A stretch of 25,191 nucleotides of DNA from Candidatus Pacearchaeota archaeon. GTDB lineage: Archaea; Nanoarchaeota; Nanoarchaeia; Pacearchaeales; GW2011-AR1. The stretch lies in assembly GCA_002690445.1 (NCBI GenBank), contig NZER01000492.1:1-25191 (forward strand). Reading direction: 5' to 3'. Both the position numbers and the translations under genes were made by a program. Below are positions 5,668 through 25,191 of this stretch, in pieces (position 1 is the first letter of the stretch; each line of letters begins with the position of its first letter). The notes below the pieces were generated by a model, which did not search any database, had not been told where the DNA came from, and saw only the letters and a program-made list of their open reading frames with translations.

Positions 5668-8600
5668 TTATTTTATATTCCAGTCATTCATTATTGTGTC
5701 TACAGAAGGCTTCGGAATTCTTCCTTCAATTGCTCTTGGTCCAATTTTTTGCATAAGCACATCTCTCTTAGGCAACTTAGCTGGTCTCGATACATATGTT
5801 ATATCTGTTGCTATTCCATCAGAGCCCACGGAAACAGTAAAGCTAGATAAGCCTTTCGCTGGGGTTAGTAGGGTTTTTAAAGTGTCAAATTCTGTTCCGT
5901 CAACCCTTATGTTTAATGTTCTGTTTGCGTTATCCGCGCTTTTATTTACCGCTCTTAAAAATGTGTAATACGTTGGAAGGTTAACCACCTCAGGAATAGG
6001 CTGATCATCGGCATCACGATTGTATGGATTATTTACAACTAATTGCTCGTGATATGATCCGGGGGAGTTATTGTCCCCCATCTCTATAGAATCCAAATCC
6101 TGCGTAACATCTACGTCGACTATTCGAGTTTCCATTACGTTTGCACCTACCTTGGCTGCAAGCGGATTGAAATTTGGATCGTTGGGGTCAGGGGCTTCTA
6201 AATTTGCTAAGTCAGGAGGAGTGCCTAACACAATGTGTTTTCTAGGATAATAACCTTTTTCTGTTGCGTCAGAAAACCAATACCCTACATAGTCATGCTC
6301 GATAGGAAATATGATTTTCTTTGTTATAGCTCTATGTGTGATATTAAAATATCTTGCTCTATAATTTGAAAATTTATGTATCGGCTCGTTAGGAGGATCA
6401 CACCCACAGACAGTTTTGACTATGTCTTCCTCGCACCACAAAGTGCAATCTTTGGGAGAAGCATTTTCTGCATGCCACTCCATTACTCTTCTTCTCGTGT
6501 TATCATATACTTTTGCATTTACTAATTCTGCCCCAGAAAGATAAACGCCAGCCGGACAAGGCCCTTCGGGCCCTACGCCACATTCTCCACCCGAAGCAGA
6601 AGAGGGAATGCGAATAGCTTCTATTGTTTCCCCAAATGTTGATGTAGCACTAGCCGTGGAGGGACTAGTGCCTACTGCTACGGTTTTATCAGCCAAAACT
6701 GGTGTTCCATTAGGTAGCGCCGGAGTCACAACTGACACTATGTTTCCAGAGGCAGTTGCGGTAATACCCGTAATTCCGCTTCCTAGTATGTCGGTGGCAA
6801 GTTGAACAGCTGTAGAGTCATCGTCATTCGCGAATGATTGAGTCGTAACAACAACAGGCCCACTAGCAAGGGAGAAAGTCACCTTGATAGAACCACCGAC
6901 AGTATCTCCAGCCGTTACAGTAATTTCATCTTTCTGAGCTATGGTAGAATTTTGACCGCAAAATTCTTTTGCTTTTGTTTCGTCCCCAAAGTAGTACACC
7001 CCCATGCCCACTTCATTAATGCTGCACTCCCAGCAGGCACACGCATTTGGATCGGCATTAACTGATACTTTAACGTCAATCGCTTCATTACTTACACACT
7101 CAGCTGGATTATCTGAGCCTTTCCATGTCGCTTCATCAATCGCTTCACAGCTAGTTTTATCCATGGCGGGCAGAGGGTTGTCGTCTATTGTTCTGGCGGT
7201 TGGATAGCCAATTATTTTTTTGTCTTTTTCGCAATACCCGTAATCCTCCTGACAAGCTAAAGTTAAGCATGATTGCCAAGCAGGATTAAACGGCTCATAA
7301 TTAGGTTTATCTGGGTCTGAAACCCATGGTGAACCGGTGGCCGGATCGTCTGGGGGTGGGTTTGGGGTACCAGACGATCGAACGTTTCCGTATTTTTTTG
7401 CCTTGGGTCCCATGCAGTCCCAGCATGGTTCAATACAATCTGGTGGATCACAGGTTTCTCCCGAGATGGCGTCTAATATATCACCGCAAGTACATGGTGG
7501 GCACCCCGTCTCACAAAAAGCGGTTGTCGTCGTTGCCTCGCAGTACCAATGCTCGTAATCTATTTTCAATATAGGATCCCCTCCGGAACCATCAGGTTTC
7601 ACTTCGTCTATACATTTGTCCAAGCGAGGAATAAATGCTACACCGGGAAAATACCCTGATTCTGCATGTTCTGGTTTGTATACTGATTGATCGAAATATC
7701 TAATTCCCAAAGTTTTGTAAAGATCCCGAACTTGTCGATCTTGCCTTAGAACCGTATAAATTGGAACGTATTCTCCAATGTCTGTCATTGCCGTAAGTGC
7801 TTGCGGGGAAAACGAGGGGGAAGAATGTTCGGTATCAACAATGTACCTATTGTGAAATAAATCATCTATAACCTCCTGAGGAGTTCCCCAAGTATTATCT
7901 TCAATTTCAAAAATGGCCCGCTCAGGACAGTAAGTGCAAGGATCTGTGTCGTCGCCATTAATAGCTTTTCCGTTATCTGCAAATATATAATCATTAACCT
8001 TTAAAACCTCTATGAATGGATAGCTGTTTCCAGAATACACATTGCTTTCTGGTGATGTTTTTACATCAAACCTATACATGTATGTTCTATGTTTTGATTG
8101 AGCCTCATAATCAAATAGCCATTTTGGACATTGTTGCTCACTTGGAGGCGGATTTATTGGTCCGTAATTAGGGGGAATCCCCATGGCTAATTCTCCTTCA
8201 TCCGTTCTGTTCCCATACCACCACGCATATTTTCCGAAAAAATTATCAGCAACATCTTTGTCGTATTCTAGAACTTTGTTTTGAAAATTTTTATTCCAAA
8301 CCCCTATTAAACAGTCATAATTTTCTGCACTCTTCCAAATTGGGTGCTTAAATGGATTTTTGATTTTCCCCTGCATTGCCTCTTTGTGCGCGCTCAGCAA
8401 ATCGTGCCTCTGCGTTGCGTTCGTTAATCTTCTTTCTGGGAAAAATCCTAAAGCCATCCAAGGTATGTCTATTCTCCACGCGGCATTTTGCCACCCCGGC
8501 CTTTGCGATGCATTCTGAATGGCTAAAGCATGATTAGCGAGCTTATTACAATAGTAATCTGCGAAATGACTTTCGTCATGCCCTTGAGGTCTAAGCAGGC

Positions 8601-10239: not shown

Positions 10240-10252
10240 TTTTCCTTTTTTC
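10240..10252 (-). promoter_or_regulatory. Ribosome binding site of the hub-like gene
   Basis: AAGGA lies with a short A-only spacer before the ATG at 10239. With the in-frame stop TAA at 10261-10263, it fixes the start of the 1,523-residue protein. Confidence 0.7.
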
Positions 10253-10270
10253 TTTATAAATTACACTTTT

Positions 10271-10292
10271 TTAAAAAATCATTTTTTACTCC
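10271..10292 (-). promoter_or_regulatory. Strong ribosome site followed by a three-residue reading frame (Met-Ile-Phe-stop)
   Basis: AAAAGGAG, a six-base spacer and ATG are followed after two codons by TAA. The signal begins directly after the stop of the lectin-like gene. The ATG is one base out of register with the hub gene's ATG 43 bases downstream. It could be a decayed former start, a minimal leader that passes ribosomes on, or chance in A-rich sequence. Confidence 0.4.
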
Positions 10293-10299
10293 TTTTCTA

Positions 10300-12108
10300 C
10301 TATTGTATACTAAAAAAAGTACCCTCATTATTATAAATAAATAACGGGTTTAATTGCGCTGTATTGTCGGAATTGTTCAAATTACAGTTGCACGTTAATG
10401 AATATCCATTTCCCTCCGAAAATCTTACCCCATCAACCCAAACCATTTCTGAAATAATATTAAAATTTTGACAATGTATATACTTATTGCTTGAATTATT
10501 GGTGTTTGTTATACCGCTGTTCCTGTCAGCGAATAACATTCTTCCAGACTCTAAGTTTTCGGCATGAAGCACCAAGAATGTTCCCATCCACGACTCGTAA
10601 TCCACCCCATAAACAAGTTTTTTTCTGTTCAAATAAACATCTTTATTTTGCCAGCCATAAAAATAAACATCTCCCCAGTATTCTGTAAAATCTAGTCCGA
10701 CAACGGGTGAGGTGGATATGTCGTACGTTACGATATCCAACTCAGAATAGCTGCCTTGTAGCTTTTTAATTGTTGTCCCGCTTATTTGATAATCAACATC
10801 TTTTTCTTGTATCTCTCCATTCAAATAAATATTAATATTTATTTCCGTTGAATAAGTGCTGTTGATCCTAAATGAGGCGTCTCCAGTGTTAAATGTTGCT
10901 TTTCTGTTTAAATTGACTTGAATCTCGTCGAAGGAATAAATTTCTACAGTTTTTGTTTTGTCTACGTTCTTGTCTAAAAGCAAACATTTTTCAGAATATG
11001 TCTTAGAATGACTATTGTCATATGTTTTTGATTCGGGTATCAGGGTGGATGTTTTCTTGGTTAGGGTTCCCTCTCCCGCTCTATATTGTGTAACTGTTTT
11101 ATAATTTGTTTCTTTTATGGGTATTTTATCATACGCTGTAATTGTTAACCCTGTCGCAGATGTTATCGGTCTTGGTTGATATGCGTATCCTGTTGTTTTT
11201 AACCCATCTTTGACTTTAGTTTCCACTGCAACACCCGGCTTGTTAACCTCAGAAACAACCTCTTTGTAATACTTGCTTGTGTAGCTAGTTAAGAAGAATG
11301 ATTCTGATATTTCTTTAATTTCTCCTAGAGAGGTATGCTTATTTATTAATACAAAATTATTTATATTTCCAGTAAACCCAGTGTATTCTGAATTCTGAGT
11401 AAGATCTTCAGTCCCGAGCCCTCCTATAGAAAAAAGATTAGTATTTGTTTTGTCTTTTGTTGTAAAAGTTTTTGAATATATTTTTTTGTATATTGGATTA
11501 TAAATATTTAAAGATATCCCGCTTGCATGCGAAGACTTAGAAACTATAATTAGCGCGTTGTCCCCTATCGGTTTGTGGAATGTTTTTATATTTTTTATTC
11601 CGTCAACGTCAACATCTTCGTAGAACAAGCTATTTGCCCCATTTAGCCCAACGGTAAAACCGCTAAGGTTAGTCGAGCTTCCTCTATTTGAAAATAGAAT
11701 TCTTGCTTTACCTTTTTCTGAGGTTGTTGGGCATTCGCTTGAAATGTCAAAAAATGCAGTCCAACTTTCTATGCTTGACGATCCTAGAACTAAAACGCTA
11801 GATGACCCATCAAAAACCCCTCCCCCAGACAAGCTCCTTGGAGCACTGCTTAGCCCCGCGGAAATACCGCACATAGATTCAGAATCAATTTCAGTAATTC
11901 CACCCGTTACAAAATATTTATCAGTAGTCTTAAAAAGATTAAAAATCATATAGCTATTTAAATTCGCAGCAACTAAGTTTTGCTCAGTAATTGGCGCGGT
12001 TATAGTCATCTCCGAAGGTGGTCTCCAGTCATAGAAAACCTTTGCCTGAGACTCTGGAATGCCTTGGTTTTTTATTTTTGCTAATAATATGTCTTTGTTA
12101 ACGTTCAT
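10300..12108 (-). CDS. Lectin-like tail fibre/spike protein (602 aa)
   Basis: Residues about 90-275 have the pattern of a concanavalin/LamG-type beta sandwich: WTAFFDIS, then ILFSNRG, SGFTVGLNG, ALIIVSK, and a closing TGNINNFVLIN strand. The C-terminal part has three diverged copies of a fibre repeat of the type hLNGxxhxxGxDYxh (around 423, 490 and 558), known from phage tail fibres. Sugar or surface binding is therefore likely. Unlike its neighbours it has no Thr linker, few Cys and no C[WY]xC module, and its DNA looks more A/T-rich, so it may be an exchangeable insertion. The start is set by an in-frame TGA six bases upstream; I see no clear ribosome site. The gene begins 6 bases after the preceding stop. 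Confidence 0.62.
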   Translation of the reverse strand: MNVNKDILLAKIKNQGIPESQAKVFYDWRPPSEMTITAPITEQNLVAANLNSYMIFNLFKTTDKYFVTGGITEIDSESMCGISAGLSSAPRSLSGGGVFDGSSSVLVLGSSSIESWTAFFDISSECPTTSEKGKARILFSNRGSSTNLSGFTVGLNGANSLFYEDVDVDGIKNIKTFHKPIGDNALIIVSKSSHASGISLNIYNPIYKKIYSKTFTTKDKTNTNLFSIGGLGTEDLTQNSEYTGFTGNINNFVLINKHTSLGEIKEISESFFLTSYTSKYYKEVVSEVNKPGVAVETKVKDGLKTTGYAYQPRPITSATGLTITAYDKIPIKETNYKTVTQYRAGEGTLTKKTSTLIPESKTYDNSHSKTYSEKCLLLDKNVDKTKTVEIYSFDEIQVNLNRKATFNTGDASFRINSTYSTEININIYLNGEIQEKDVDYQISGTTIKKLQGSYSELDIVTYDISTSPVVGLDFTEYWGDVYFYGWQNKDVYLNRKKLVYGVDYESWMGTFLVLHAENLESGRMLFADRNSGITNTNNSSNKYIHCQNFNIISEMVWVDGVRFSEGNGYSLTCNCNLNNSDNTAQLNPLFIYNNEGTFFSIQ

Positions 12109-12114
12109 ATTTCA

Positions 12115-15100
12115 TTAAGGGCATGGCACCGGTTGAGTTCCTTCCATGAGAGCATCATTTGGGCATTGAGTCTTTGCGGAGGTTTCTGTAAATGCGTAAA
12201 CAATGCTTTCGTCTTCACACTTCCAGCACTTAAGGTCGGCAGTTTCGCCGCATGGGACAACAGCTATGTCAAAAAGAGAAATGCCCGCCGTCGACCCTTC
12301 TTCCGTACACTCGTTAGTAGCTTGTTCTTCGCTAGCGGCGTATACATACGTGTATCCTGTTGGCGGATCTTCCCCCATATTCATACACGCGTAACAATCA
12401 GCTGGCGGTGATGGGCATTCTTCAGCTACACTTTCTTCTCCCGAGTTTTCGCAAACTTGCTGTGCGTCTTCTGGGGTTAAGGCATCAAAGTCTGGCACAA
12501 CAACAGTCCCGTCGTCCGCAACACAGTTATAACATTTTTTCTCCAAGATATATTCACAGGGGTAAACATGGTCTGCTGCACCATGCTCATTCATGCAAGC
12601 GGTCGATGCGGCAGTGATGTCTACGGCTTGTACATCTCCCAACTCCACAAGGCTGCTTCCATAACAAGTATAACAATTCTTACAGGGAGAAGGTGTTAAT
12701 ACATGGGTTTCTCCTGCGGCAGGCGCCGTGGTGGTCGTAGTGGCTCCGCCACCTGAAGGAGCAGCGGTAGTGGTCGTCACAACAAGACCCAAATCGGTGG
12801 CTAATTGATCACATTTCTCATAAGCTTCTTCAGGTATAGTTCCATTCTCGGCTTCTTCATCAGTTTGATATGCGTACACTTCACCGCGCGTAACGCCAGC
12901 GGCAGTTAGGCAGTCCCAACATGCTTTCTGTTTTTCTGGCTCAGGTATTTCTACGCAAAACGAGGCATCATCTTCAGGTATATAACTTCTTTCCAACGAA
13001 ACAGAGATAGATTGAGCCGCGGATTCCCTATGAGAAACATTTTTGTTTATGTCGTAAGGTCCATCTGGAGTTCCAAGCGCTGCAACCTGTGGGTTTCCCT
13101 CGTAATCAAGAGCGGTGCCTTCTTGTTTGAGCGCTGCGTTTAATATTTCTTGTATTTCATTAGCTTTTATTCTTAATTCATTTTCCATTGCCGCATCAAT
13201 CACAAGGGCGTCTTGCCGCATCGTAAGATTCACTTTTGTAGTTGATTTTGCTCTTGTTTGAATTCCAAATTTTTGTATAGCCCAATGTCCATTGTAAGAA
13301 TTCTCTTCGTTTTCTTTTTGGCCCGAGGCATTTACTTTAACAAAGTTAACAGGATTATTAACCAATACGTTATAAGAAGCTTTGTCATAACACCCCGTGG
13401 GGTTGTCTGTTCCACCGCAAAACCCCTCACTTACTTCAACCACTGTTATATCACCTTCGGGATAAGGAAACTCTCCTTCGCAATAACTTTTAGCGGAAGC
13501 AGCTGTACCTGAAATATACACAGCTTGAGGAGTGCCGTCATCGACGCACTCCCAACACACATCTGCAGCTCCACTTCCAAAAACGTTTAAAAAATCTGAG
13601 TCGTTAAAGGTTGCAGCTAAATTTAACTGACCTGACGATTCATTCCTTGTTACAGACAAGGATTCCGCGCATTCATTTAACTTCCAGCACAATGACGCAG
13701 GATCGCCAACAGCCGTGGCATTTTGGTAGGGGGACCAGTGTGCGCACGCTTCTTGCCCTGATTGATAAGGCTGCGCTTTCGCATAAAAAGTGGTAACTTC
13801 ATTAGGCGGATCAGAATTAGGATCTTGTCCACTACACTTATGACAGACTTTCATTATTACGTCATACTCAGCCTTCGCTTTTTTAGCCAAGAAGTCCATT
13901 AGGTCTGTGTTATCTAAAAAGTCTTGTATATAACATTTTCTTTCTGTTATTAGGCCTCTTACTTTTAATGTGCCTTTAATTGAAATTTTTGATATTTGTG
14001 TTATTTCATCAGTAGAAACTTCCACGGTATAATCAAAATAATGCCTACTCTCATCGCCATTTTCATCTACAAATAATGGGTTTGTGTCAAATTTTGCTTT
14101 TACATTTATCTGTTTCTCTTCTATGCTTTCGTCAAGGCTGTATGATACAGGTATTCTCTGTAGCAATGGGTGTTCTACGTCTGAGCCATCCATTCCTGAT
14201 ATTTCTTTAGCTTTTTCGTACAAACCCTTTTTTCCAGCCACAGGAGCGGGGGGAATCACCGACATGTCATATGCGTCATTTTTAATTACCGCTGCTCTTA
14301 ATTCACCCATGGTGGTATTTTTCCCACCCTTAATTGTCCCGTTTATAGTTACATTTCTAAAGTCGTCATTAAGAGATTGACTCATTTCAACTGAGTATTT
14401 TGAGACAGCCTTTAATCCCTCGACAGCGCTATCTTCGTCAAGGTAAGCGATAAAGGTCTCCGTAATACTATATTGACCTTCCATTCTGTTTATCTTTTCG
14501 TTTTGATTTAATAGGACTAGATATAATTTTCCTACCCCCGTGCCACAGTCCCAAGCCTTTACGGCACCCTCATCAGACATATTTCCTTCGCCCAGTCTTG
14601 AGTTAACCCAAGTGATGGCATTATCTAAGCCGTTTTCTAGTTGCCCGGGGTTTGTGGCGGATGCTCCCTGAGTAAAATCTACACCCCTTGCTGACACGGT
14701 GTGAGTTACAGACATGGAGCCATCTTCTCCCTCTGTTAATTGGAATTCGTCTGTCGGATCAACTATCCCTTGAGCTATAAAGAAATCCTGTTCGTAGCAC
14801 CTTAACCTAATTGCGAAATCCAAAAAACCATGATACCCAGACTCAGGAAACTCGATGCTCTCCACAACGGTATTGGGAAAAGACATTTTGTTTGGTGGGG
14901 TTTCAGAATCCTCGAACTCAAAAGTTTTTAAATTCTTTCTGAAAACATCTATGATCCCATCTCTAGCTGTTTCTAAGATTTTAACGCCCACTGGATAATT
15001 ACTAACGTTTCCCCAGTTTCCTCCGTTTAGACAGTTTGTTTGATCGGGCTCAGGAGCAGCCGCGTTATTTGCCACGTCAACAGCCTGACAAAAAATAAGT

Positions 15101-15321
15101 GCTGTTGGGGCATCGGGGGCCAAAATATATTGTCCACCCGGGTTACATAGCCAACACTGGGCATTTAGTCCTAGTGATATTTGACCATTTAGAGTTACGT
15201 TCATTACTTGCCCCCATTTTCCTCCGAAGAACAAGGGCTGCCTATCAATTTGAATATAGGGAACCGCCTCCCCCCAAGGAGCTTTTCCGTCATATTTAAT
15301 TGATACTGGGCTAACTGGCAT
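12115..15321 (-). CDS. Beta-rich tail/baseplate structural protein with tandem Cys mini-domains (1,068 aa)
   Basis: I do not recognise a named family. The N-terminal part carries a CWLC module (residues 56-78) inside a beta-rich domain, then IRLRCYEQDFF and DGSMSVTHTVSARG, then a helix (ITWVNSRLG). Several copies follow of a strand pair of the type YSxxhxxSLxxxxxxVxIxGxI. Comparable blocks in the same order occur in the next upstream gene, so the two look like paralogs. A CWEC module sits at 589-614. The last 270 residues (801-1067) are five Cys modules in tandem, with a Thr/Ala/Pro/Gly linker (about 849-868) between the first and second. The protein ends within the last module (VPCP). The ATG follows the previous stop by one base (TAATATG). 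The position after the tape-measure candidate suggests a distal-tail or baseplate role, which is inferred. Confidence 0.6.
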   Translation of the reverse strand: MPVSPVSIKYDGKAPWGEAVPYIQIDRQPLFFGGKWGQVMNVTLNGQISLGLNAQCWLCNPGGQYILAPDAPTALIFCQAVDVANNAAAPEPDQTNCLNGGNWGNVSNYPVGVKILETARDGIIDVFRKNLKTFEFEDSETPPNKMSFPNTVVESIEFPESGYHGFLDFAIRLRCYEQDFFIAQGIVDPTDEFQLTEGEDGSMSVTHTVSARGVDFTQGASATNPGQLENGLDNAITWVNSRLGEGNMSDEGAVKAWDCGTGVGKLYLVLLNQNEKINRMEGQYSITETFIAYLDEDSAVEGLKAVSKYSVEMSQSLNDDFRNVTINGTIKGGKNTTMGELRAAVIKNDAYDMSVIPPAPVAGKKGLYEKAKEISGMDGSDVEHPLLQRIPVSYSLDESIEEKQINVKAKFDTNPLFVDENGDESRHYFDYTVEVSTDEITQISKISIKGTLKVRGLITERKCYIQDFLDNTDLMDFLAKKAKAEYDVIMKVCHKCSGQDPNSDPPNEVTTFYAKAQPYQSGQEACAHWSPYQNATAVGDPASLCWKLNECAESLSVTRNESSGQLNLAATFNDSDFLNVFGSGAADVCWECVDDGTPQAVYISGTAASAKSYCEGEFPYPEGDITVVEVSEGFCGGTDNPTGCYDKASYNVLVNNPVNFVKVNASGQKENEENSYNGHWAIQKFGIQTRAKSTTKVNLTMRQDALVIDAAMENELRIKANEIQEILNAALKQEGTALDYEGNPQVAALGTPDGPYDINKNVSHRESAAQSISVSLERSYIPEDDASFCVEIPEPEKQKACWDCLTAAGVTRGEVYAYQTDEEAENGTIPEEAYEKCDQLATDLGLVVTTTTAAPSGGGATTTTTAPAAGETHVLTPSPCKNCYTCYGSSLVELGDVQAVDITAASTACMNEHGAADHVYPCEYILEKKCYNCVADDGTVVVPDFDALTPEDAQQVCENSGEESVAEECPSPPADCYACMNMGEDPPTGYTYVYAASEEQATNECTEEGSTAGISLFDIAVVPCGETADLKCWKCEDESIVYAFTETSAKTQCPNDALMEGTQPVPCP
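12118..12921 (-). repeat. Five tandem Cys mini-domains
   Basis: Copies begin at about 12921 (CWDC), 12675 (CYTC), 12534 (CYNC), 12396 (CYAC) and 12228 (CWKC), reading leftwards. Each starts C-W/Y-x-C, usually followed by an acidic or Gly-containing turn, a Val/Tyr strand, an Ala-rich helix start with a third Cys, and in most copies a fourth Cys. Lengths are about 37-49 residues. Sequences between the Cys differ strongly, so the copies are old or fast-evolving. Paired Cys suggest disulfides or a metal site; the sequence cannot decide between them. Confidence 0.7.
12719..12778 (-). repeat. Thr/Ala/Pro/Gly linker between Cys modules
   Basis: Two runs of 4 and 5 Thr codons, each followed by an Ala/Pro segment and separated by Gly-rich residues, lie between the first and second of the five tandem Cys modules. 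Codons are mixed. The wording closely matches the linkers at 16264-16405. Confidence 0.75.
13480..13557 (-). repeat. Single Cys mini-domain copy (CWEC form)
   Basis: CWECVDDG, a VYIS strand, an Ala-rich turn and a closing Cys 26 residues on. It is the clearest match to the copies at 6958-7035 and 1534-1644, which share the CWEC start. Confidence 0.65.
15088..15156 (-). repeat. Single Cys mini-domain copy (CWLC form)
   Basis: CWLCNPGGQYILA with a following Ala/Pro turn and a third Cys about 22 residues after the first. It lies near the N-terminus of the 1,068-residue protein and is the shortest copy, so membership is less certain. Confidence 0.5.
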
Positions 15322-15322
15322 A

Positions 15323-17737
15323 TTATCTTTTTTGTAAATAGTTTACTGCTGCTGTAAAGCTTGCACTTCCTTTTGAGTCAAATGACCACTGGCATAACTT
15401 TATGTACATGTCATCTTCAATTATATTGTCAATATCATTATCATCAAAAACTTGTTGTAATTCCTTTTTTACAATTTCACTAGACATGTGTTTTAAGGGT
15501 ACGGATGGAAGTTTTGGATCAGCCAATCTGTTTTCATTGGGTACCCTATCTAAGAATGCTTTCACACTTACGCTTCTCTCCCCTATGTCTGTCTGTTTCG
15601 GGTCGTGAACCATCATCTTCCATTGTATAATTGGGTATTCTTCTTTAATTCTTTGAGGTAATTTATCTTCTGTTTCTATTTCTGCTTTTCTTATTCCATT
15701 TGGGTCTGGATAGGTGCAGGAAATACTTGGGTCACCGGCCCAAGTAGAAGAGTAACTAAGAGTTCTTCCGTTTGGGTTGTAAGAAACTGTCGTTGATTTT
15801 AATTTTGCACTGTCAACCACTACTGCGTGGCCATCGTCAGCACAGCCATCATCCCTTATATCAAAATCCTTTAAAGAATTATAAAAATCCTTTACTCTCG
15901 CCGCCTGTCCTTTTCTGTCCTCGGGATAAATTACCTCCCAAGGGTTATCTATTTTACCGTCTGGTGTTGCGCCACTTCCCCAAGAAGGTCCATCGTCGGG
16001 GATTCCATCATCGTTAGCGTCTACATAAGGAGAGGCAACGTCACTTCCTTTATCTTGGAATTGAGTTAAGTCACAGTTTTCGTTAATTGTTATTACGCCG
16101 CTTGAGTCTTTTGAAGCTTTCAAGGTTCTGCTTGCAAAATATCCTTGTGTCATTTCTGGATCATCCGTAAATGTTATAGAATAAGAAACGTCTCCTCCAA
16201 TTCCGTTTATGTTCTTGCTTAGTTCAAGGGGGAAAGCTTTATTTAAAGTAGGGCAAGGTGAGCAGGGCGCTGCCGTCGTTGTTGTTACAGCGGGCGCTAC
16301 CGTTGTTGTAGTTGTACCACCGCTCTGATCATCTCTAATAGCTGGCCTAGGCGTCGTTGTGGGGGCGGACGTTGTTGCTGGCGCTGCGGTCGTAGTTGTT
16401 GTTGTGTTGCAACAATCATTCCATGGTCCAGTAAAATTACAAAAATGAGCATCGTAAAATATAGAACATCTTACCGCAGCAGCGCCATACGGGTCTCCAG
16501 CGACCACCTCGGGGTCGCCAGCCAACCACTCTTCCATTCCTTCTCTTGCTCTCGTTAGAGTAGCGTCATTTACATTTTTCCCATCCCCTAAACATTTTTT
16601 GTTGCCCTTTACTTTTCCTGATTCCGTTACGTTTAACGTTCCTTCGGCTGTTAGAGTGAGGGAGTGCTTGTATGTTGCTGTCCAATCTAACTCTGCGTCT
16701 TTTTCTGTTAATAAGCTTATTTTTTTAGACATTGAACACTCACCCGTTATCAGGTTTTGTGTTTCTGTGTAGTAACAAATTATGTCATTATTAACTTGGA
16801 TATCTTTGTACTGTCCTGCTTGATACCTTAACCCAAAGGCAGGGATATTAGCTTTAGTATCGAGTATTCTTCTCGCCAACTGTAATGCTTTATGAATATT
16901 ATACTGTCCGGGGCGACATAGTTCTGATACTCCGTCGCTCGCAGTAATCCATCCTGCTGGATCAATTGGTGTATTTATTCCCGGTTGCCCGGGTTCTCCC
17001 TGCGCGCAATCCGCTTGACTTGCTGCCAGTACCGCGGTTTTACCTCCGTTGGCAATACAGGTTTTTTCGGCGGCATCCAGTGAGTCTGCCATAAAATTTC
17101 CAATGACTGCGCCAGCGTCGTCTTTACATTCGTAACAATCAGTTAAACCAGTGGGGCAACTATCGAAAGGGGTTATTGATATAGAGTGGGTTATGTCAAC
17201 CTGCTCTCCCTTGCCGTAATTAAATGTAAAATCTTCTGATATACCATCTAAATATGGACAAACATTTGGATCATTAAAAATACCAGTAGGCGTTCCGTCA
17301 GCAGCTTCGCTAAAGAAATCTTTATAATAATCGTGATCTTTTATATTTTCTCCGTCACCACAAATTCTTTGTTCTATTTCTAATCTTATATTGCCTCTTC
17401 CTACGGCATTTTCATTAGCATCTGAACTTGTGGAAGCGCTTTCATTTATAATTCTGCAATTATCTATTTCTATTCCATATAGATCAATTTTAGTTTGCCA
17501 AGTGCCAAGGTCTTGGTAGTTGTTGATCATTGAAATCCATTTACCTAAATCTTGGCTACTTAAAGGATTAACAAAAAATATTTCAAAAACCTGAGTTACG
17601 ACATCGTGAATATTTATGACGTCGCCAAGCATATTTTTTTGAATGTTTATACCTCTAGTTTTAATACATTCAATATCCCAAGGTTGAGGCTGCATTTCAT
17701 TTGAGCCGGGCCCTGTATATGTTGTGTTACTGTGCAT
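15323..17737 (-). CDS. Beta-rich tail/baseplate structural protein (804 aa), apparent paralog of the next gene
   Basis: I do not recognise a named family. The N-terminus (1-200) contains IRLEIEQRIC and later GEQVDITHSISITP, which align in order with IRLRCYEQDFF and DGSMSVTHTVSARG of the 1,068-residue protein. A CYEC mini-domain (201-244) follows. A helix with LARRILD, a strand pair KHSLTLTAEGTLNVTESGKVKG and a long Thr/Ala/Pro linker (residues 445-490) come next. The C-terminal half has a similar block beginning SYSITFTDD and ends in SASFTAAVNYLQKR. The start follows two ribosome sites, with an in-frame TAA nine bases upstream of the start. It sits 19 bases after the giant gene, the usual place for distal-tail genes in tailed phages. 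A structural role is likely; the exact part is unknown. Confidence 0.6.
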   Translation of the reverse strand: MHSNTTYTGPGSNEMQPQPWDIECIKTRGINIQKNMLGDVINIHDVVTQVFEIFFVNPLSSQDLGKWISMINNYQDLGTWQTKIDLYGIEIDNCRIINESASTSSDANENAVGRGNIRLEIEQRICGDGENIKDHDYYKDFFSEAADGTPTGIFNDPNVCPYLDGISEDFTFNYGKGEQVDITHSISITPFDSCPTGLTDCYECKDDAGAVIGNFMADSLDAAEKTCIANGGKTAVLAASQADCAQGEPGQPGINTPIDPAGWITASDGVSELCRPGQYNIHKALQLARRILDTKANIPAFGLRYQAGQYKDIQVNNDIICYYTETQNLITGECSMSKKISLLTEKDAELDWTATYKHSLTLTAEGTLNVTESGKVKGNKKCLGDGKNVNDATLTRAREGMEEWLAGDPEVVAGDPYGAAAVRCSIFYDAHFCNFTGPWNDCCNTTTTTTAAPATTSAPTTTPRPAIRDDQSGGTTTTTVAPAVTTTTAAPCSPCPTLNKAFPLELSKNINGIGGDVSYSITFTDDPEMTQGYFASRTLKASKDSSGVITINENCDLTQFQDKGSDVASPYVDANDDGIPDDGPSWGSGATPDGKIDNPWEVIYPEDRKGQAARVKDFYNSLKDFDIRDDGCADDGHAVVVDSAKLKSTTVSYNPNGRTLSYSSTWAGDPSISCTYPDPNGIRKAEIETEDKLPQRIKEEYPIIQWKMMVHDPKQTDIGERSVSVKAFLDRVPNENRLADPKLPSVPLKHMSSEIVKKELQQVFDDNDIDNIIEDDMYIKLCQWSFDSKGSASFTAAVNYLQKR
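16264..16405 (-). repeat. Long Thr/Ala/Pro linker in the 804-residue protein
   Basis: Three main Thr runs (6, 5 and 4 codons) alternate with Ala, Pro and Val, and end in AAPCSPCP. The linker joins two beta-rich halves. Mixed Thr codons argue for selection on the peptide rather than simple slippage. Confidence 0.8.
17006..17137 (-). repeat. Single Cys mini-domain copy (CYEC form)
   Basis: CYECKDDAGAVIG, an Ala-rich segment with the third Cys and a fourth Cys in ADCAQG, about 44 residues. The CYEC-D-D start and four-Cys spacing match the tandem copies of the next gene. Confidence 0.65.
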
Positions 17738-17756: not shown

Positions 17757-20700
17757 TTATGTATGAGATGTTGGAGTTATTCCTCCTTCCGCCACTGGTG
17801 AAGCGCCCATAGATAATCCTGAGTCCCGCAAAATACCTTCTACAATTTCTTTTATCTTTGATTCTAAATTTGCTACTTGCCCGCTTACTGACATATTTGA
17901 GTGATCTACCTTTAACGCGTCTCCCCAGTTAAGCGTCATTGTGTGTTCGCCAGTAACTGTTTGGCCGGTTGCCTCCGTTTCTGTTGGTGCCGCTGCGTCT
18001 GCTGTTCCTTCGTTATTTCCTAGGTTTGCGAAAGCTGTTTCTATAGCGACTCTTACAGCTTCCCCCATGTCGTCTGGCAAACTGGATAGTCTACTTAATT
18101 CTGTGGTTAAAGTTTCTATTTTTAATGCTAGCTCGTTCGAGCTTTCTTGCGTTTCGTTTTCGCTAGAATTTGTTCTATCTGCTTCTCTGGCTTCCGTTAT
18201 GTTCGCGTGTCTAAAATTAACTGGAGATTCAAAATCGGGGCTAGAACCTGCAGCGTAATCAGGAGAACATACACAGTCTTTCATGTCTGAAATCATAGAG
18301 GTTATTCCTCCTCCTGCTCCCCCACCCCCAGCGGTATTTAGCCAGCTTGGTACAGCTGGGCCACCTGATGCAGGTAAGTCAATGCCACCACCGTAATCTA
18401 TTGCTGGAGATTCTTGTGGCCCTTCGTAAGTAGACGGGATCAGGTGACTTAAATCAGTCATGAATGATGAGTCTACCCCCATTGAAGCATCTGTCATTGC
18501 TGGTCCTCCGCCGGGTATATTTAATGTGTTACCCATTGTCGGATCTCTATATACTGCTCCTCCGTGCATTGGCGCATCAGTTCTCCCCATGTATGATGCT
18601 GATCCTAATCCAGTTACCCCTAAGTCTTCTATAGCTATTTGTCTGGATGTATCCTTGGTATTTAGTTTCGCAGCCTCCGCCATAGCCGCACCTTGTTCTT
18701 CTCTAGCTTTTTCTAACTCAGGCAACCTTGCTTCAAAGCGCGCTTGAGCATCCTTGTCACCGCGCATTCCTGCAGCTCTATCTCTTTCCATTTGAGATTC
18801 TAGTTTGCTTTCTACTATATTTGCTTTTTGCAGTCTTTCGTTTGCCTCGTAACGTTTTGTTTCTGTTATTCCCCTTGCATCTGCCCCTGATAAGACTCGC
18901 TGCCTTTGAGCTACCCCTCCGCCTTGAGCACTGCCGATGCCGTAGTCTTCGCCCGAAGCTGCATTAAAATCTGTTCTACCGGTAGTCGGGAGACCTTTTT
19001 CTTCTCCTCTTGCCCTTAGTATTTTAATAAATTCTTCACGCTTACCGGAGGCTGCCGCCTGTTTCTTATCAACATCTGCCTTAATTGCTTCATAAGTATT
19101 TTCACCAAGATCAACTTTTTCTGCTGCTGGTCCCGGTGGCGTAGGCGGTTTTGTGGTTGGGGTTGGAGTGCTAACATATTTTTCTCCCTCTTCGGCTTTC
19201 CGAGTAAACCGATCGAATCCATCTTCAGTTTTGTCCGTCGTCGTAGGCAATGCTGGGAATCCAGATGCCAGTTTTTCTATTGCATCTGCTATTTTCCAGC
19301 AGCATTTTACAAGTCCCTTAAATCCCTTTCTGGTTTCATCGTTTGCGATCTTTATGTTGGAACCTAATGCTTCGGCACCCCTCTTCGTGTCTTCTGGAGA
19401 TGATGTTAAAGCGTTACGTTGTCGAGCGCCGACGGTTGGTGGCCCTGCGGGCGCTGCTGGTATTGTGGGTGCGTCGGCCGGGGGCACATTTGACGGTACT
19501 GAATCAGGATCGCTTTCTGTTGCCTCGCCGGGTAATGGGGCTGCTGGATCTACCACGGGCGTTGGTGCAACTGATCCACCTCCGGGTATCGACGTTTCTG
19601 GGCCGCCGCTAGTTGTTGGGGTAGACGTTTCTGTTGTGCTGGGAATTGGGCCAGCCGGACCCGTTGGGGGTGGCGCGGGAGTCGTGGTTGTTGGCTGCGG
19701 TTTCATTTCACCCGCAGCTAGTTGACCACGTCCACCTGTCGGGAGAAAAGCTTCATGACCCGGATCAAATATCGAAGTTAACCCTTCGTCCGTTCTTCCT
19801 ACGTTACGCCCAGTTTGATCTGAGCGATTCCAACTATAAGGAGTAGCGCCTAATTTACCGTCTTCATCTTTTCTAAATCCGGTTGGCGTTGGACGACCTT
19901 GATAGCCCTCAATTTTAACTCCCCCCGGAGCTATGCCTGACGATGGTAAATCAAATGGTAAGTACCCAGCGCCGCCACCCTGCCCCGCGTAATCTGTTCC
20001 CCCAGTAAATCCTTTGGTGGGGTCACTAAGTGTTGCTTCTCTTGCGTCTAGCTTAACATCGGGAGAATATCCCATTTCTTTCCAAGGTAAATTCTTAAGT
20101 GCGTCTTTTCTTGATTCTATTTCTGCGCCCCGTGCTTTTTGTTTTCCAGCCTTCTCTTCTTCTAGCTTCTTTTTCTTGTCTGGATCTGTTTCTTCGGCAA
20201 TTTGTTTATCTAGCTTTGAAACTTCCGCAGCCAACGCGTCTTCAAGACCTACAATATTCTCACCCAAGCCCTTGAGCGCATCCCTTCTATCTGTTCCTGT
20301 TTTACCCTCTATCGCTTTGAGGGCGTCTTTAAGGTCTCCAAGTTTATTAACGTCTTGTTCTTGTTTTTCTCTTTCCGTCGTAGCTTCTGCAGCCTTCTTG
20401 TCGGCAGCAGCCTGTTTCTTTTCTATGTCTGCTAAATGTTTTGTGTTTTGTTTTACTTCTTTTTCAGCGCGAGCAAGATTGTCTGTGGCTTCTCTAAGCT
20501 TGTCTGCTGCATCAGATTCTTCTTGAGACGCGGCACGCACATCTCTTTCGTCGACCCCCTCCTTTAAGGATCCATCATCTTTGTAAAACTCTTCGTGTTT
20601 TTTCTTAGCTTCGTCAAATTCTTTTTGAGCTTCGGGGACACGCTCTTTGTAATCTTTGACTCTTGCTTTTTCATCTTTAAGAGACGCCTCTATGGACACC

Positions 20701-23700
20701 TTATCTTTCTTGCCGGCGCTGGTCGTTACCGTTACTTGTTCTGCTTCTTCTTTAGCTTTCTTTTCAGCTTCTTTAGCTTTTTTTACATCTTCAATTTCTT
20801 TGGGAAGTTGATCTTTAATATCTTTTTGTTTTGCGTCTATTGCTGCTTGAACGGCTTTCCTTTGTTTTGCTACTTCTCCTTCGGGTAGCGGTCTTAGTGC
20901 TCTCCCTCCCGTGCTACCCTCACCAGCCACGCCTCCGGGACCTCCGTGACCCGGCCTTCCGGCTCCCGGTTTTCCGCTCGTGCTTGCAGCAGCAATTCCT
21001 GTGCTCCTTCCTGAAATAGTGTCAGAACCCTTAAGTATATCTCTTATTTCACATAAACATTTGCAGGCTTTCTGCATGCAATTACCGTCGTCTTTCGGCG
21101 CGCGTGCAGCCTCAACATTTCGCGCGAATTGACCTTCAGCGGAACCGGGTAAGCTGCCGCCGGGGAGGCCGGTGGTTGGATCAACGGCACCGGTCTGTGC
21201 GGCTGGGCCATAGGTAATTCGAGCTGGTCCGGCTGATGGCCCAGTAACAGGATTTGTTCCGCTCGGCGCGGAGGCAGTACCCGGCATACCGGGTAATGGG
21301 CCCGTTGGTGCCACAGGTGTGTCGTCGGGTGTGCCGCCGGGTTGCCCAGCCATGTTAGGAACATGACCTTCCGCCGCCATTCCCTTCGTTTGAGGCGTAA
21401 TTCCTACGTTTCTAGCAAGACTAATACCGCCGGCCAAGCTTCCTTCTCCAAACCCTCCGTTGTTAAATATGCCTTTACCGGTGGGATTATATCTTGGTCC
21501 CGTCGTTAAGTTCTTTAAGCTCGTATTTGTATCTAGCCTTACCGCTGAAGAAGGTACAGCTTGTGATTCTCTGTTTATGGCATCCATTGTCGGATCAAAA
21601 TTCGGAACGAAGCCCCTAGATAAGTTCCTTGGAAGACCTGTTACGGGATCTATGTCTAGCGGGGCTTTGTTTCTATCCATCTCCTCGTGCTCTTCGCCCG
21701 TGACGATGATTGGCGCGTTAAGTTCATCCTGCTTAATATTATCCAACCTGCCGGGCACTTGCGACAAGTGTCTGTTTCTTAATGTTTTATGTTTTTCGCG
21801 AGCTTTTTTTAGTTGCTCGGCCAATTGCGGCTCAGTGAGGCCGCCGCGGATCAACCCACGCCTGCGGTAATACTCCCGTGGAGTAATTTCTCCGGAAAGA
21901 TATTGGTCGTCCAACTCGCGCCGTTTGCGAGTCGCAGAACTACCACCCACAGCGAGTGCAGCTTCCTTAGCGCGAATGTCATCCTTAGCGGCTTCAAGCA
22001 TGTCCGCAGTTATCAACTTGTGACCGCTGGATTTGTCACGATCAACAGCTGGATCATCGCCAGTCACCGACCTATATGTACCTTCTCCCCACCTTGGATC
22101 GTATGCGTATCCTTTTGGTTTGTGTAACTCAAAGGCAAATTTACGCATGCCCAACAACGTTTCTTTTGTGTAAGATTGGCTTAGCTGATTTCGAGCAGCG
22201 AAAGTCATATCATCCGTGCCGCTCTCTTGGCCAATAAACATATCACCCCAAAGTTTGTGAAATTCTTTTCTCTTGCGGGGGTCCATAGCAAGAAGCAGCC
22301 TTGCTGCACTCCCAGATATATCCCCTGCGCCCACTAAAGTACCGATAGACGATTCACTTAGATCCTTGGGCGGACGGCCCGCACGAGCGTCGATCCCCCA
22401 AGCACCCAGAAATGTCTCATGCGCGGGCCGCTCCGCGGACCGGGCCAATGAGGTCACCTTCGCACGGGGATCATATAATGTTCCTCGTTTCGTGACTTGG
22501 GAGAATCTCGAAGTGTCATCCAAGCTATACTTATCAATTTTCCCTTCATGTTCAATACCCATGTCATCCACCAAACTGTGCGCCTGTCTTCTTTCTGCTC
22601 TAATATTTTGCTGGCCAAATTTTATAAGTTTTCCTTGGCGGAATTCCTCTCTTGAGAGGGAATCCAGTCCTCCCCGTAACCAGTGCTCTTGATCAAACAT
22701 TTTATTTCCCCAAGCGCCCTGCTCGCCGGTTATTCCTTCTTCATTACGCAAAATCTTACCCATTGATCTTGCCATAGCTCTTCTTATTACTTGTCGAGTT
22801 GCCGAAGTGTTTGATTTTTTTCGCATGCGGAGGAGTAGTGGGTGATTTGGCCTGAAAATCCTTTTTCTTACATCTGGATCATTTAAGTCCTCATTCAAGC
22901 GGACCACTCTTGCATTTGAACGCCCCAAGAATCCCATCTGGAATGCGTTTGCGTGCCTTCCACCGGCATCAGTAATCGCCACGTCGGCGAAGTTAATAGG
23001 CTTAAATTTGGCCTGAGTAATTTCTGAAGTACCTTCAGGCACAATCATTTTGTGAGGCCCACTAACTTTACCATCACGCGTCATACGGAAATTTGAGTCC
23101 TCATCAGTTCCCGCTTGAAATGTTTCTTTCAAGAAATCATAACGATCACTGGGACTCAGTTTCATTGTCTGTTCTAATATTTTTTCAACATTTGCATCAA
23201 AGAACTTTTTGTCATAGCCATGCTCTGATTGGTTTTTAAGATATCTTTCATAGTCATCCTTGGACTCTTTAATTTGCGCTTGTTCTTCGGCTAATTCTTC
23301 GGGAGTCCAAAAACTTTTACCGGAAGCTTTACGGTAATTTACAAATTCTGGTAGTTTTCTGACTTCTTCATCAGTAAGGTCAGGCCTGCGAGCCTTCATC
23401 GTTTCGAACTGTATATTTATCCTTTCTTGATGTTTTTTCCTGACCTTATCGTCTAGGAAGGCTTCCTGTTCTTCTAGGTTCATGTCTTCCCATTTTTTTG
23501 GTCCGAAATATTTTGCCTCGGAACCATCGTCAGCAAAATTCGGAACGAAGCCGTCAGCTTTAAGTTCTCCCCAAGGGTGATACTTTTTCGATTTTTCGAT
23601 CAGCCTTATATCTTCCTTATATTTATCTTTGTTTATATCTCTATTAAGCCATGCATCTTCTTTAGCTATAATCTCGCGTAATTCTGCGTCTTCGTTTTTT

Positions 23701-25191
23701 GATTGTGCGCGTTCTTTAGCTCCCCTATTAATCCAGTCGCCCATGTATTTGTCTGCTCCAGTTGCGCCAAGTCCTCTTTGGGCTCTTAAAATTGCATCAG
23801 CACCAGCGTCTCGTTTTTGGGTAGCCCCCAACATTTCTAGTCCTGAGCCTAGTAGTCCAAGTATTCCAACTCCCAGACCCTTACCGAACGGAGATTTTCC
23901 ACTGAAGAGCCTTTTCTTTTGTTCTCGTAATTCTTGGTCCGCCGCCTTGTGGTAGTCTCCCGACATGATTTTTTTCCGCATTTTATCCCGTGCTCGTTCA
24001 CGCTTAATCGTATCATCAACAAAATTCGGAACGAAGCCACTAGCTTTTGGGCTAAATTCTGTAGGCAGGCCCGTTGTCGGGTCAAGGATTGGCCAATCAA
24101 AACCAGTCAACTCCTCTTTTTCTCGTTGAGCTCTCAATTTCCGCATCTCAGCCCCGGTTGGGGTGCCCAAAGGCAAACCTGTTTTAGGGTCGACTTGTGG
24201 TGGGCGCGCGCGTTCCTTCATGTCGTTGAGGTGCGCTTTGATGACGGCTTGCCGGGAGGGAGATTTAAAATTCGGAACGAAGCCATCGCTTACCGCGCGC
24301 CCCTCGCGCGCTGCGCGTTTAAAGCGGTTCCAATCAAGCTTTTCTTTTAATTCCTTTGGTACATCTCCGGGGTCGCCGCCAACTTTGCCTCGTGCTTCAA
24401 ATTCTTTCTTTAAATGTTCTAGACGCAGGCGCTCCTCTTCTAAGGCGTCAAAATTTGGATCAGCCATTTTCCCCTGACCCCTCATATGATTTTGCCACCA
24501 GTCTTTGAGCCATCCTTCCTGTTTTAATTCTTCATCAAATTCACGCTTTATTTTCCCGGGATCTGCACCCATAGGTAAACCAGTGTCTGGGTCAATTAGT
24601 GGGGCAACTTTCCTAGCGTCAGGAAAACGGGGATCCTGCATCCCCTGCATCTTGCGAAATTTATTAAGTTGATTAATTCGATGCTGCTTCTCGATCTGTT
24701 CAGGCGTAAATAACGGATCAGGTTGTCCGCGAACTGATCTCCTTGGTTTGTCAGGCTGTAACTGTAACCTGTTACGATACTGGATGCGGGGTACTGTTGG
24801 TTTCTTTTTATCGTCAAAATTCGGAACGAAGCCATCTGCATCACCAATTCCAAACATCGAACCAATGATACTGGGGATCTGGGTTGGATTAGTTAACATA
24901 GTCCACCCTACATCCAATTCATCGTAAATAGTGGAAGCAAGTCTACCGGGACTTAAAATATCAAGCGGATTCCCGAAAACACCTGCGCCTGACCGACTTA
25001 TATTTTCTGACTGCTGCTGCTGAAAGGCGTTTGCTGGACCTTGGAGAGCTGCTCCAAAGAAATGCGCTGCAGTCGAACTTGATTCAGCCGCGGGCCCTCC
25101 CCACATTGGGTTACCGTGATAGTCATAGTCTCCGGTTGAACCATAATCTCCCCACGGTAATGCAGCTAAAGTAACTGGTCCACCAACTCTA
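17757..25191 (-). CDS. Giant repeat-rich virion protein, tape-measure candidate (5' partial)
   Basis: The frame is open from 25190, with no stop upstream of the first ATG at 25106, so that ATG is unlikely to be the real start; at least 2,477 residues are visible. Numbered from that Met: GFVPNF at 92, 275, 357, 519 and 1165, a variant GHVPNM at 1247, and five DPxTGLP motifs between 170 and 1320. A Gly-rich hydrophobic stretch lies near 405-425. An unrecognised charged globular region spans about 760-1120. A long Lys/Glu coiled coil spans about 1406-1680. Pro/Gly/Thr linkers follow, with Cys-pair helices near 1340 (KACKCLCEI) and 1932 (VKCCWKI). Great length, coiled coil and position upstream of the tail genes fit a tape-measure protein, which sets tail length. 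The shortage of membrane-like segments is unusual, so another large internal or tail structural protein remains possible. Confidence 0.55.
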   Translation of the reverse strand, partial: RVGGPVTLAALPWGDYGSTGDYDYHGNPMWGGPAAESSSTAAHFFGAALQGPANAFQQQQSENISRSGAGVFGNPLDILSPGRLASTIYDELDVGWTMLTNPTQIPSIIGSMFGIGDADGFVPNFDDKKKPTVPRIQYRNRLQLQPDKPRRSVRGQPDPLFTPEQIEKQHRINQLNKFRKMQGMQDPRFPDARKVAPLIDPDTGLPMGADPGKIKREFDEELKQEGWLKDWWQNHMRGQGKMADPNFDALEEERLRLEHLKKEFEARGKVGGDPGDVPKELKEKLDWNRFKRAAREGRAVSDGFVPNFKSPSRQAVIKAHLNDMKERARPPQVDPKTGLPLGTPTGAEMRKLRAQREKEELTGFDWPILDPTTGLPTEFSPKASGFVPNFVDDTIKRERARDKMRKKIMSGDYHKAADQELREQKKRLFSGKSPFGKGLGVGILGLLGSGLEMLGATQKRDAGADAILRAQRGLGATGADKYMGDWINRGAKERAQSKNEDAELREIIAKEDAWLNRDINKDKYKEDIRLIEKSKKYHPWGELKADGFVPNFADDGSEAKYFGPKKWEDMNLEEQEAFLDDKVRKKHQERINIQFETMKARRPDLTDEEVRKLPEFVNYRKASGKSFWTPEELAEEQAQIKESKDDYERYLKNQSEHGYDKKFFDANVEKILEQTMKLSPSDRYDFLKETFQAGTDEDSNFRMTRDGKVSGPHKMIVPEGTSEITQAKFKPINFADVAITDAGGRHANAFQMGFLGRSNARVVRLNEDLNDPDVRKRIFRPNHPLLLRMRKKSNTSATRQVIRRAMARSMGKILRNEEGITGEQGAWGNKMFDQEHWLRGGLDSLSREEFRQGKLIKFGQQNIRAERRQAHSLVDDMGIEHEGKIDKYSLDDTSRFSQVTKRGTLYDPRAKVTSLARSAERPAHETFLGAWGIDARAGRPPKDLSESSIGTLVGAGDISGSAARLLLAMDPRKRKEFHKLWGDMFIGQESGTDDMTFAARNQLSQSYTKETLLGMRKFAFELHKPKGYAYDPRWGEGTYRSVTGDDPAVDRDKSSGHKLITADMLEAAKDDIRAKEAALAVGGSSATRKRRELDDQYLSGEITPREYYRRRGLIRGGLTEPQLAEQLKKAREKHKTLRNRHLSQVPGRLDNIKQDELNAPIIVTGEEHEEMDRNKAPLDIDPVTGLPRNLSRGFVPNFDPTMDAINRESQAVPSSAVRLDTNTSLKNLTTGPRYNPTGKGIFNNGGFGEGSLAGGISLARNVGITPQTKGMAAEGHVPNMAGQPGGTPDDTPVAPTGPLPGMPGTASAPSGTNPVTGPSAGPARITYGPAAQTGAVDPTTGLPGGSLPGSAEGQFARNVEAARAPKDDGNCMQKACKCLCEIRDILKGSDTISGRSTGIAAASTSGKPGAGRPGHGGPGGVAGEGSTGGRALRPLPEGEVAKQRKAVQAAIDAKQKDIKDQLPKEIEDVKKAKEAEKKAKEEAEQVTVTTSAGKKDKVSIEASLKDEKARVKDYKERVPEAQKEFDEAKKKHEEFYKDDGSLKEGVDERDVRAASQEESDAADKLREATDNLARAEKEVKQNTKHLADIEKKQAAADKKAAEATTEREKQEQDVNKLGDLKDALKAIEGKTGTDRRDALKGLGENIVGLEDALAAEVSKLDKQIAEETDPDKKKKLEEEKAGKQKARGAEIESRKDALKNLPWKEMGYSPDVKLDAREATLSDPTKGFTGGTDYAGQGGGAGYLPFDLPSSGIAPGGVKIEGYQGRPTPTGFRKDEDGKLGATPYSWNRSDQTGRNVGRTDEGLTSIFDPGHEAFLPTGGRGQLAAGEMKPQPTTTTPAPPPTGPAGPIPSTTETSTPTTSGGPETSIPGGGSVAPTPVVDPAAPLPGEATESDPDSVPSNVPPADAPTIPAAPAGPPTVGARQRNALTSSPEDTKRGAEALGSNIKIANDETRKGFKGLVKCCWKIADAIEKLASGFPALPTTTDKTEDGFDRFTRKAEEGEKYVSTPTPTTKPPTPPGPAAEKVDLGENTYEAIKADVDKKQAAASGKREEFIKILRARGEEKGLPTTGRTDFNAASGEDYGIGSAQGGGVAQRQRVLSGADARGITETKRYEANERLQKANIVESKLESQMERDRAAGMRGDKDAQARFEARLPELEKAREEQGAAMAEAAKLNTKDTSRQIAIEDLGVTGLGSASYMGRTDAPMHGGAVYRDPTMGNTLNIPGGGPAMTDASMGVDSSFMTDLSHLIPSTYEGPQESPAIDYGGGIDLPASGGPAVPSWLNTAGGGGAGGGITSMISDMKDCVCSPDYAAGSSPDFESPVNFRHANITEAREADRTNSSENETQESSNELALKIETLTTELSRLSSLPDDMGEAVRVAIETAFANLGNNEGTADAAAPTETEATGQTVTGEHTMTLNWGDALKVDHSNMSVSGQVANLESKIKEIVEGILRDSGLSMGASPVAEGGITPTSHT
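20070..20890 (-). other. Coiled-coil coding segment of the giant protein
   Basis: About 270 residues are dominated by Lys, Glu, Ala, Asp and Gln with Leu/Ile at heptad-like spacing and almost no Pro, Cys or Trp. Flanking DNA encodes Gly/Pro-rich linkers, so the rod is sharply bounded. Such rods are common in tape-measure proteins. Confidence 0.7.
21162..24593 (-). repeat. Five DPxTGLP peptide motifs with diverged codons
   Basis: DPDTGLP (24573-24593), DPKTGLP (24171-24191), DPTTGLP (24063-24083), DPVTGLP (21630-21650) and DPTTGLP (21162-21182). The third and fourth sit 8 and 5 residues before a GFVPNF copy. Codon choice differs from copy to copy, unlike GFVPNF. A related HPETGLP lies in the M23 protein at 3348-3368. 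Confidence 0.88.
21597..24833 (-). repeat. Five exact copies of an 18-base repeat encoding GFVPNF
   Basis: GGCTTCGTTCCGAATTTT occurs without a mismatch at 21597-21614, 23535-23552, 24021-24038, 24267-24284 and 24816-24833, always in the same frame. A diverged peptide version (GHVPNM, 21351-21368) has different codons. Preceding residues are A/S/R plus D/S/R, and following residues vary. Flanking DNA is not repeated beyond a few bases. Confidence 0.95.

Follow-up and report, generated by a model that had tools for sequence, protein, structure and literature searches.

The GF[IV]PNF peptide as a probable seam between exchangeable modules of giant tape-measure-like phage proteins

In the stretch of contig NZER01000492.1 analysed here (25,191 nt at full length, hereafter the window), a giant open reading frame on the minus strand encodes the peptide GFVPNF five times, each time with the same 18 bases. 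This raises the question of whether the DNA of the motif is preserved along with the peptide that it encodes, and how several copies within one gene could have become identical.

The repeated motif in the giant ORF

All of the five copies lie in one frame of the giant ORF (Table 1) and read GGC TTC GTT CCG AAT TTT, as noticed in the initial annotation of this DNA, whose figure of 512 synonymous spellings for GFVPNF is also correct. Based on the codon usage of the giant ORF itself (motif codons excluded), the probability of this spelling is 0.0014, and that of five copies sharing any one spelling is 1.0 × 10−9. A codon bias strong enough to make the spelling expected, the objection foreseen in the annotation, is therefore not a property of this gene. 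Within the window, no further site with three or fewer mismatches to the 18-mer was found on either strand (mean expected by chance, 0.09). The ORF does contain a sixth, degenerate motif that had been overlooked, GHVPNM, which is encoded by different codons (GGT CAT GTT CCT AAC ATG) and has not been homogenised with the others; the gene accordingly counts as a carrier of several G[FYHL][IV]PNF motifs, five exact and one degenerate. The five DPxTGLP repeats of the same ORF are written in five different spellings, in agreement with the earlier remark that their codons vary, and none of the other 249 motif ORFs described below contains this repeat. The codon-variable DPxTGLP repeats and the unhomogenised GHVPNM indicate that not all repeats of the gene have been made alike.

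Table 1. Features of the window; the GFVPNF copies and GHVPNM are referred to as seams.
Feature	Position	Strand	Remark
Giant ORF	17757..25190	−	2,477 aa; all motifs inside; 5′ end past window edge
Seam 1, GFVPNF	24816–24833	−	Exact 18-mer
Seam 2, GFVPNF	24267–24284	−	Exact 18-mer
Seam 3, GFVPNF	24021–24038	−	Exact 18-mer; near flank akin to that of seam 4
Seam 4, GFVPNF	23535–23552	−	Exact 18-mer; near flank akin to that of seam 3
Seam 5, GFVPNF	21597–21614	−	Exact 18-mer; start of shared module
Seam 6, GHVPNM	21351–21368	−	Degenerate; end of shared module; position derived from motif list
Aligned stretch	21333..21638	−	Seam-bounded module of ~88 aa plus a few residues either side; common to 26 other motif ORFs
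DPxTGLP copy 1	24573–24593	−	Codon-variable control
DPxTGLP copy 2	24171–24191	−
DPxTGLP copy 3	24063–24083	−
DPxTGLP copy 4	21630–21650	−	Slightly upstream (sense) of seam 5
DPxTGLP copy 5	21162–21182	−
Four large adjoining proteins	5668–17737	−	1,523, 602, 1,068 and 804 aa

Identity among the five copies is complete in the core (mean, 1.0), falls to 0.39 and 0.33 in the adjoining 9 nt and to 0.20–0.33 farther out, and beyond about 9 nt from the motifs the mean equals background. The flanks had been described as unrelated, and this holds for nine of the ten seam pairs, which are at or near background (best pair, 9 of 18 nt; null tail, 0.042). It does not hold for seams 3 and 4: of the 9 + 9 nt that immediately flank each motif, they have 13 in common (null tail for this pair, 0.0006, with ten pairs compared), and their likeness also appears as repeat family D2.

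The visible part of the giant ORF, which is open at its 5′ end, has no PHROG match and no significant Pfam match, and the tape-measure minor tail domain PF10145 was not found in it. In other long carriers, however, the first motif typically lies downstream of that domain, and the start of the window ORF lies beyond the end of the contig. Beside the giant ORF, a cluster of genes on the same strand encodes one protein with an M23 peptidase match slightly under the Pfam cut-off and another with matches to collagen-like tail-fibre PHROGs. Judging from the relatives that bear PF10145 and from these neighbouring genes, the giant ORF probably encodes a tape-measure-like protein of a phage tail. The four large adjoining proteins have no significant family match in Pfam or PHROG; the 1,523-aa protein has no counterpart among named phages, and scans of viral contigs gave no relative of either the 1,523-aa or the 804-aa protein. 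The cluster ends with two genes at 3051–5666 and 1–3051 on the minus strand; their products are, respectively, the protein with the sub-cut-off M23 peptidase match and one in which collagen-like repeats are accompanied by a weak carbohydrate-binding match. Searches with the proteins of the window revealed no close relative of it, and hence no junction was seen in the window itself.

Spread and spelling of the motif in other phages

Other carriers were collected by scanning IMG/VR with a degenerate pattern for GFVPNFA, which gave at least 120 stretches, and with patterns for GFIPNFA and for the interior of a module. The loci are a sample of the matches, and all of them were selected for the motif or its module. 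The statistics cover 304 loci together with the window (L305–L323 were left out); after 31 near-duplicates had been removed from 281 motif ORFs, 250 were counted. In this sample, G[FY][IV]PNF is a recurrent element of giant modular proteins of phages, tape measures in many cases, and 10 of the 18 diverse carriers examined match PF10145. In motif ORFs longer than 1,500 aa, some of which are cut at the edge of the locus, the first motif lies at median residue 547, and the spacing between motifs has a median of 166 residues. Searches with two whole proteins, those of L001 (293 records) and L056 (276 records), matched the tape measures of named phages; among the matches listed, only the N-terminal core was covered, up to residue 465 of L056. 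When genomes were searched with the internal module pattern, only seven contigs were found, all of them titled MAG or uncultured bacterium. The peptides GFVPNF, GFIPNF, GYVPNF and GYIPNF were not found in the open-access papers searched.

The part of the window ORF that runs from seam 5 through GHVPNM, residues ~1187–1280, aligns with a module found in 26 further motif ORFs, so that the gene shares a motif-bounded module with other carriers. In 20 of the 26 alignments, the similarity stops between two residues before and four residues after the end of GHVPNM, and in the other six it stops earlier. An alignment of 16 representatives (A1) has invariant P, N, R, E, L and G positions. A protein search with this region gave nothing at an E-value of 0.001, although the 26 relatives exist among the fetched loci; the method needs shared exact words, and its silence consequently means little. 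No fold is claimed for this module, the predicted model being of low confidence (pLDDT, 61) with no match in the PDB.

The 163 GFVPNF copies outside the window are written, in the sampled loci, in 85 spellings. The initial annotation had proposed that the 18-mer is under a DNA- or RNA-level constraint or is a binding site, and had named ordinary synonymous variation in related genomes as the observation that would speak against it. Such variation is what the relatives display, and as a general rule the constraint on the 18-mer is thereby refuted. The same numbers rule out a site for site-specific recombination, or a binding site, that is fixed across the carriers. It is the peptide that is conserved across the carriers.

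Among 83 groups in which a single ORF holds the same peptide at least three times, the window alone has all of its copies spelled identically, and the runner-up is L230 with three of four copies alike. If the V and I forms are pooled, the three motifs of L017 are identical in 16 of 16 comparable codon pairs, in a spelling other than that of the window; it is the sole such gene among 168 ORFs with at least three motifs, the window being uncounted there owing to GHVPNM. Uniformity of the seams within a gene is rare, yet not quite unique.

Elsewhere in IMG/VR, the 18-mer of the window was found in L001 and L002 only, both of which had been fetched by that 18-mer. Another spelling has 24 matches and accounts for 5 of 160 copies, from which about 770 GFVPNF copies are estimated overall; among these, about 0.3 copies with the spelling of the window would be expected if codons were independent. 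Compared with this expectation, the two occurrences are no strong evidence of exchange, and sharing of the exact 18-mer across phages was rejected as proof of it. The sole motif of L001 with the window spelling (6273–6290, plus strand) has Asp and Lys flanks like those of seam 2, a hint of exchange that is weak when taken alone.

Recombination junctions at the motif

The DNA of relatives was compared in pairs. The ends of BLAST alignments may be drawn a few nucleotides toward a conserved motif, and as statistics based on them are prone to this pull, a stricter filter was used: at least 90% identity over at least 150 nt, followed by at most 45% over the next 60 nt, with ORF ends avoided. This reduced 142 pair-level junctions to 91. 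Of the 91 sharp junctions, 55 are no more than 12 nt from a motif, and 51 of these no more than 6 nt; of positions drawn at random from these genes, 3.1% come within the 12 nt. In the motif-bearing part only, the count is 55 of 67, versus 8.5%. The motif is present in both partners at 52 of the 55 junctions, and 51 of the 62 junctions lying no more than 60 nt from a motif are within 6 nt of it. The other 36 of the 91 are more than 12 nt away from any motif. The 55 motif junctions derive from 42 ORF pairs, none of which comes from one sample, so they are unlikely to stem from a single chimeric assembly.

In the pair L077/L112, the genes are unrelated before the motif; starting at the first base of the motif, they are 99.6% identical over 1,555 nt. 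In L121 and L269, an identity of 99.6% over 1,898 nt ends at the motif, beyond which the two are unrelated; in L055/L108, an identity of 98.8% over 1,522 nt starts or stops at the motif. For 23 seams, there is a donor on the left as well as on the right, the donors having been picked because their alignments end no more than 15 nt from the motif. Within this selection, the best crossover interval touches the unit of motif and Ala codon in 20 cases and lies 1–4 nt upstream in three. Among 148 replaced or inserted segments, both ends lie at a motif in both partners in 50, one end does in 47, and neither in 51. Differences of a single cassette comprise whole codons, with a seam overlap of 10–26 nt; cassette differences amount to 528 nt in L055/L108, 639 nt in L068/L195, 471 nt in L084/L099 and 1,734 nt in L189/L281. 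In the relatives, the motif is thus a seam between exchangeable modules, at which whole cassettes have been replaced or dropped with the reading frame kept. The proposal of a module-shuffling site, which the initial annotation had suggested to check by looking for breakpoints at the motif, finds support in the relatives from these junctions and in-frame differences, and may by extension apply to the window.

With respect to the seam DNA itself, the identity of motif codons within a gene was compared with an expectation based on gene usage and on the motif-wide codon preference, with a bootstrap that treats related ORFs as independent. An excess was found for the codons of P (+0.097; 95% interval, 0.049–0.145), V/I (+0.064; 0.019–0.110) and G (+0.033; 0.007–0.062), while the Phe, Asn and Phe codons have no clear or significant excess. 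Random non-motif codons gave no within-gene excess. The left and right donors have identical 18-mers in only four of 154 non-independent triples, and perfect homology is therefore unnecessary for exchange. Together, the tight junctions, which are not scattered across the surrounding linker, the sharing of the seam in single-cassette differences and the codon likeness weakly suggest that the seam DNA is involved. The further idea that the copies are kept uniform by recombination has the small codon excess in relatives, seen at three of the six codons, in its favour, and for the window it remains a reasoned extension.

Explanations for the uniform seams

It is fairly likely that the GF[IV]PNF linker doubles as a short-homology recombination seam, and that the spelling in the window results from recent copying of seams within the gene. 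GF[IV]PNF would be a conserved linker peptide between swappable modules of giant tape-measure-like phage proteins, and its coding DNA, about 18–24 nt with the adjoining Ala codon, would work as the seam. Cassettes between two seams are seen in relatives to be swapped, inserted and lost in frame, a process that DNA homology may drive; codons drift between phages, with selection presumably acting mainly on the peptide. As no cassette event takes place without a seam being carried along or copied, the seams of one gene would grow alike. In the window, five seams appear to have become fully alike, and recent copying within the gene, or gene conversion, is the most likely cause; the gene, with several seams in one spelling amid unrelated flanking DNA, could be in an active phase. 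As most of the sequence around the 18-mers is unrelated, the copied tract must have been very short, probably barely longer than 18 nt, and the likeness around seams 3 and 4 may be what is left of a longer tract that the two once shared.

The strongest rival, which is nevertheless rather unlikely, is a filter by viability: recombination may occur anywhere, and junctions would be found at the motif since only chimeras made between modules survive, the seam DNA being passive. This would fit a motif that is a boundary at the peptide level, with codons varying freely between phages and the motifs of donors mostly differing by several bases, and the filter alone would place junctions at domain borders. 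It accounts less well for their tightness, as 51 of 62 fall within 6 nt (a BLAST pull of a few nucleotides is conceivable), for the 10–26 nt seam overlap in single-cassette differences and for the raised codon likeness in the motif core, and it leaves the five identical spellings of the window unexplained.

Selection at the nucleotide level on a lineage-specific DNA or RNA site, recognised by a recombinase, a nuclease, the packaging machinery or a regulatory protein, is improbable. The identity of all five copies (P ~10−9) would be expected of such a site, as would its fall to near background at the codon edges, but these edges lie exactly at codon boundaries, which points to a peptide unit. 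A small dyad within the 18-mer, TTCG-TTC-CGAA, might likewise be taken as a recognition feature, but it results from any choice of TTC with CCG. Moreover, none of the 82 other groups of at least three copies is uniform, no copy or near copy occurs elsewhere in the window, and the sixth seam, GHVPNM, has a different sequence.

Selection on translation, through codon context or pausing at the domain boundary, is very improbable as the factor that sets the motif codons. Across phages, these codons do depart from gene usage, GTA being avoided (8.9% vs. 31.7%) and CCT favoured (51.6% vs. 34.9%). The bias of the V and I codons is, however, mostly shared by VP and IP pairs outside the motif (the CCT excess is not), and the favoured codons are not those of the window, which has CCG and TTC. 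Chance combined with codon bias was rejected as extremely unlikely, given P ~10−9 for five identical spellings under the ORF's own codon usage.

Known systems and the modules between seams

The short-homology seam resembles known arrangements. In the CdiA/Rhs polymorphic toxins, a short boundary peptide (VENN in CdiA) marks the border of module exchange in a giant secreted protein, and the likeness lies in a short conserved peptide at such a border. In those toxins, one C-terminal toxin is swapped beside an immunity gene, whereas in the phage tail protein several cassettes are swapped, and those exchanged in the relatives are internal. In the vls system of Borrelia, 17-bp direct repeats within a coding region bound recombining cassettes, as the seams do here, but the vls donors are silent cassettes and the repeats are nearly identical, whereas the phage seams are conserved at the level of the peptide and the partners are other phages. 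With PF10145 tape measures, 10 of the 18 diverse carriers share the domain itself; the carriers differ from ordinary members in adding long strings of seam-bounded modules, mostly without a family match, P-loop and HAD-like ones among them.

Recent mosaicism of phage proteins through domain exchange has been surveyed (Nat Commun 2023, PMC10684548); that survey reported sequence mosaicism in tape measures but was unable to confirm any genuine recent case among them. In the present comparison, tape-measure-like proteins have abrupt junctions that coincide with one named motif, and a named seam makes the suspected mosaicism of tape measures directly testable. SNIPE, a host defence, is reported to associate with tape measures while they take part in injection (2026, PMC13190303), which is one possible reason for varying them; exchange at seams suggests a route by which phages may vary the protein met by a host defence such as this one. 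The motif can also serve as a tool for splitting giant tail proteins into modules.

A broader reading is put forward tentatively and is somewhat doubtful: the tape-measure genes of a large, mostly uncultured phage group may be arrays of cassettes for tail-delivered enzyme or effector modules, linked by GFxPNFA, with the linker DNA as the trading seam, and the window may be a gene whose seams are freshly homogenised and ready for exchange. Based on P-loop and HAD-like sequence motifs, the modules probably include enzyme domains carried by the tail, and such putative cargo enzymes inside tape measures would be of interest by themselves. Apart from PF10145, 22 further families were matched in the 18 diverse carriers, with one member each, including a transglycosylase SLT domain, a staphylococcal nuclease and weak GNAT matches. 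Two modules compared with the INPHARED set of named phages gave no match.

A P-loop-like module of 166–183 aa lies between two seams in 19 ORFs, for example at L158:1482–1991 and L084:5615–6133 (both minus). The model predicted for a representative of this module (A4) has a pLDDT of 84.9. The A4 profile matches two P-loop proteins of the PDB in the surroundings of the P-loop only (E-values, 10−5 and 9 × 10−4), the Pfam AAA matches are sub-cut-off, and the fold matches are weak, with kinase-like folds among others and no E-value below 0.001. The module is therefore offered as P-loop NTPase-like and nothing closer, and it is possible that the P-loop modules are enzyme cargo of phage tails. A second type, A5, reads as HAD-like by inspection of its motifs and gave no significant match among PDB sequences or in Pfam. 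Three modules that look HAD-like by eye, with a DxD close to the N-terminus, TAR and D[DN] and no library match, lie between two seams at L068:6324–6797 (minus), L106:4129–4689 (plus) and L064:911–1549 (minus).
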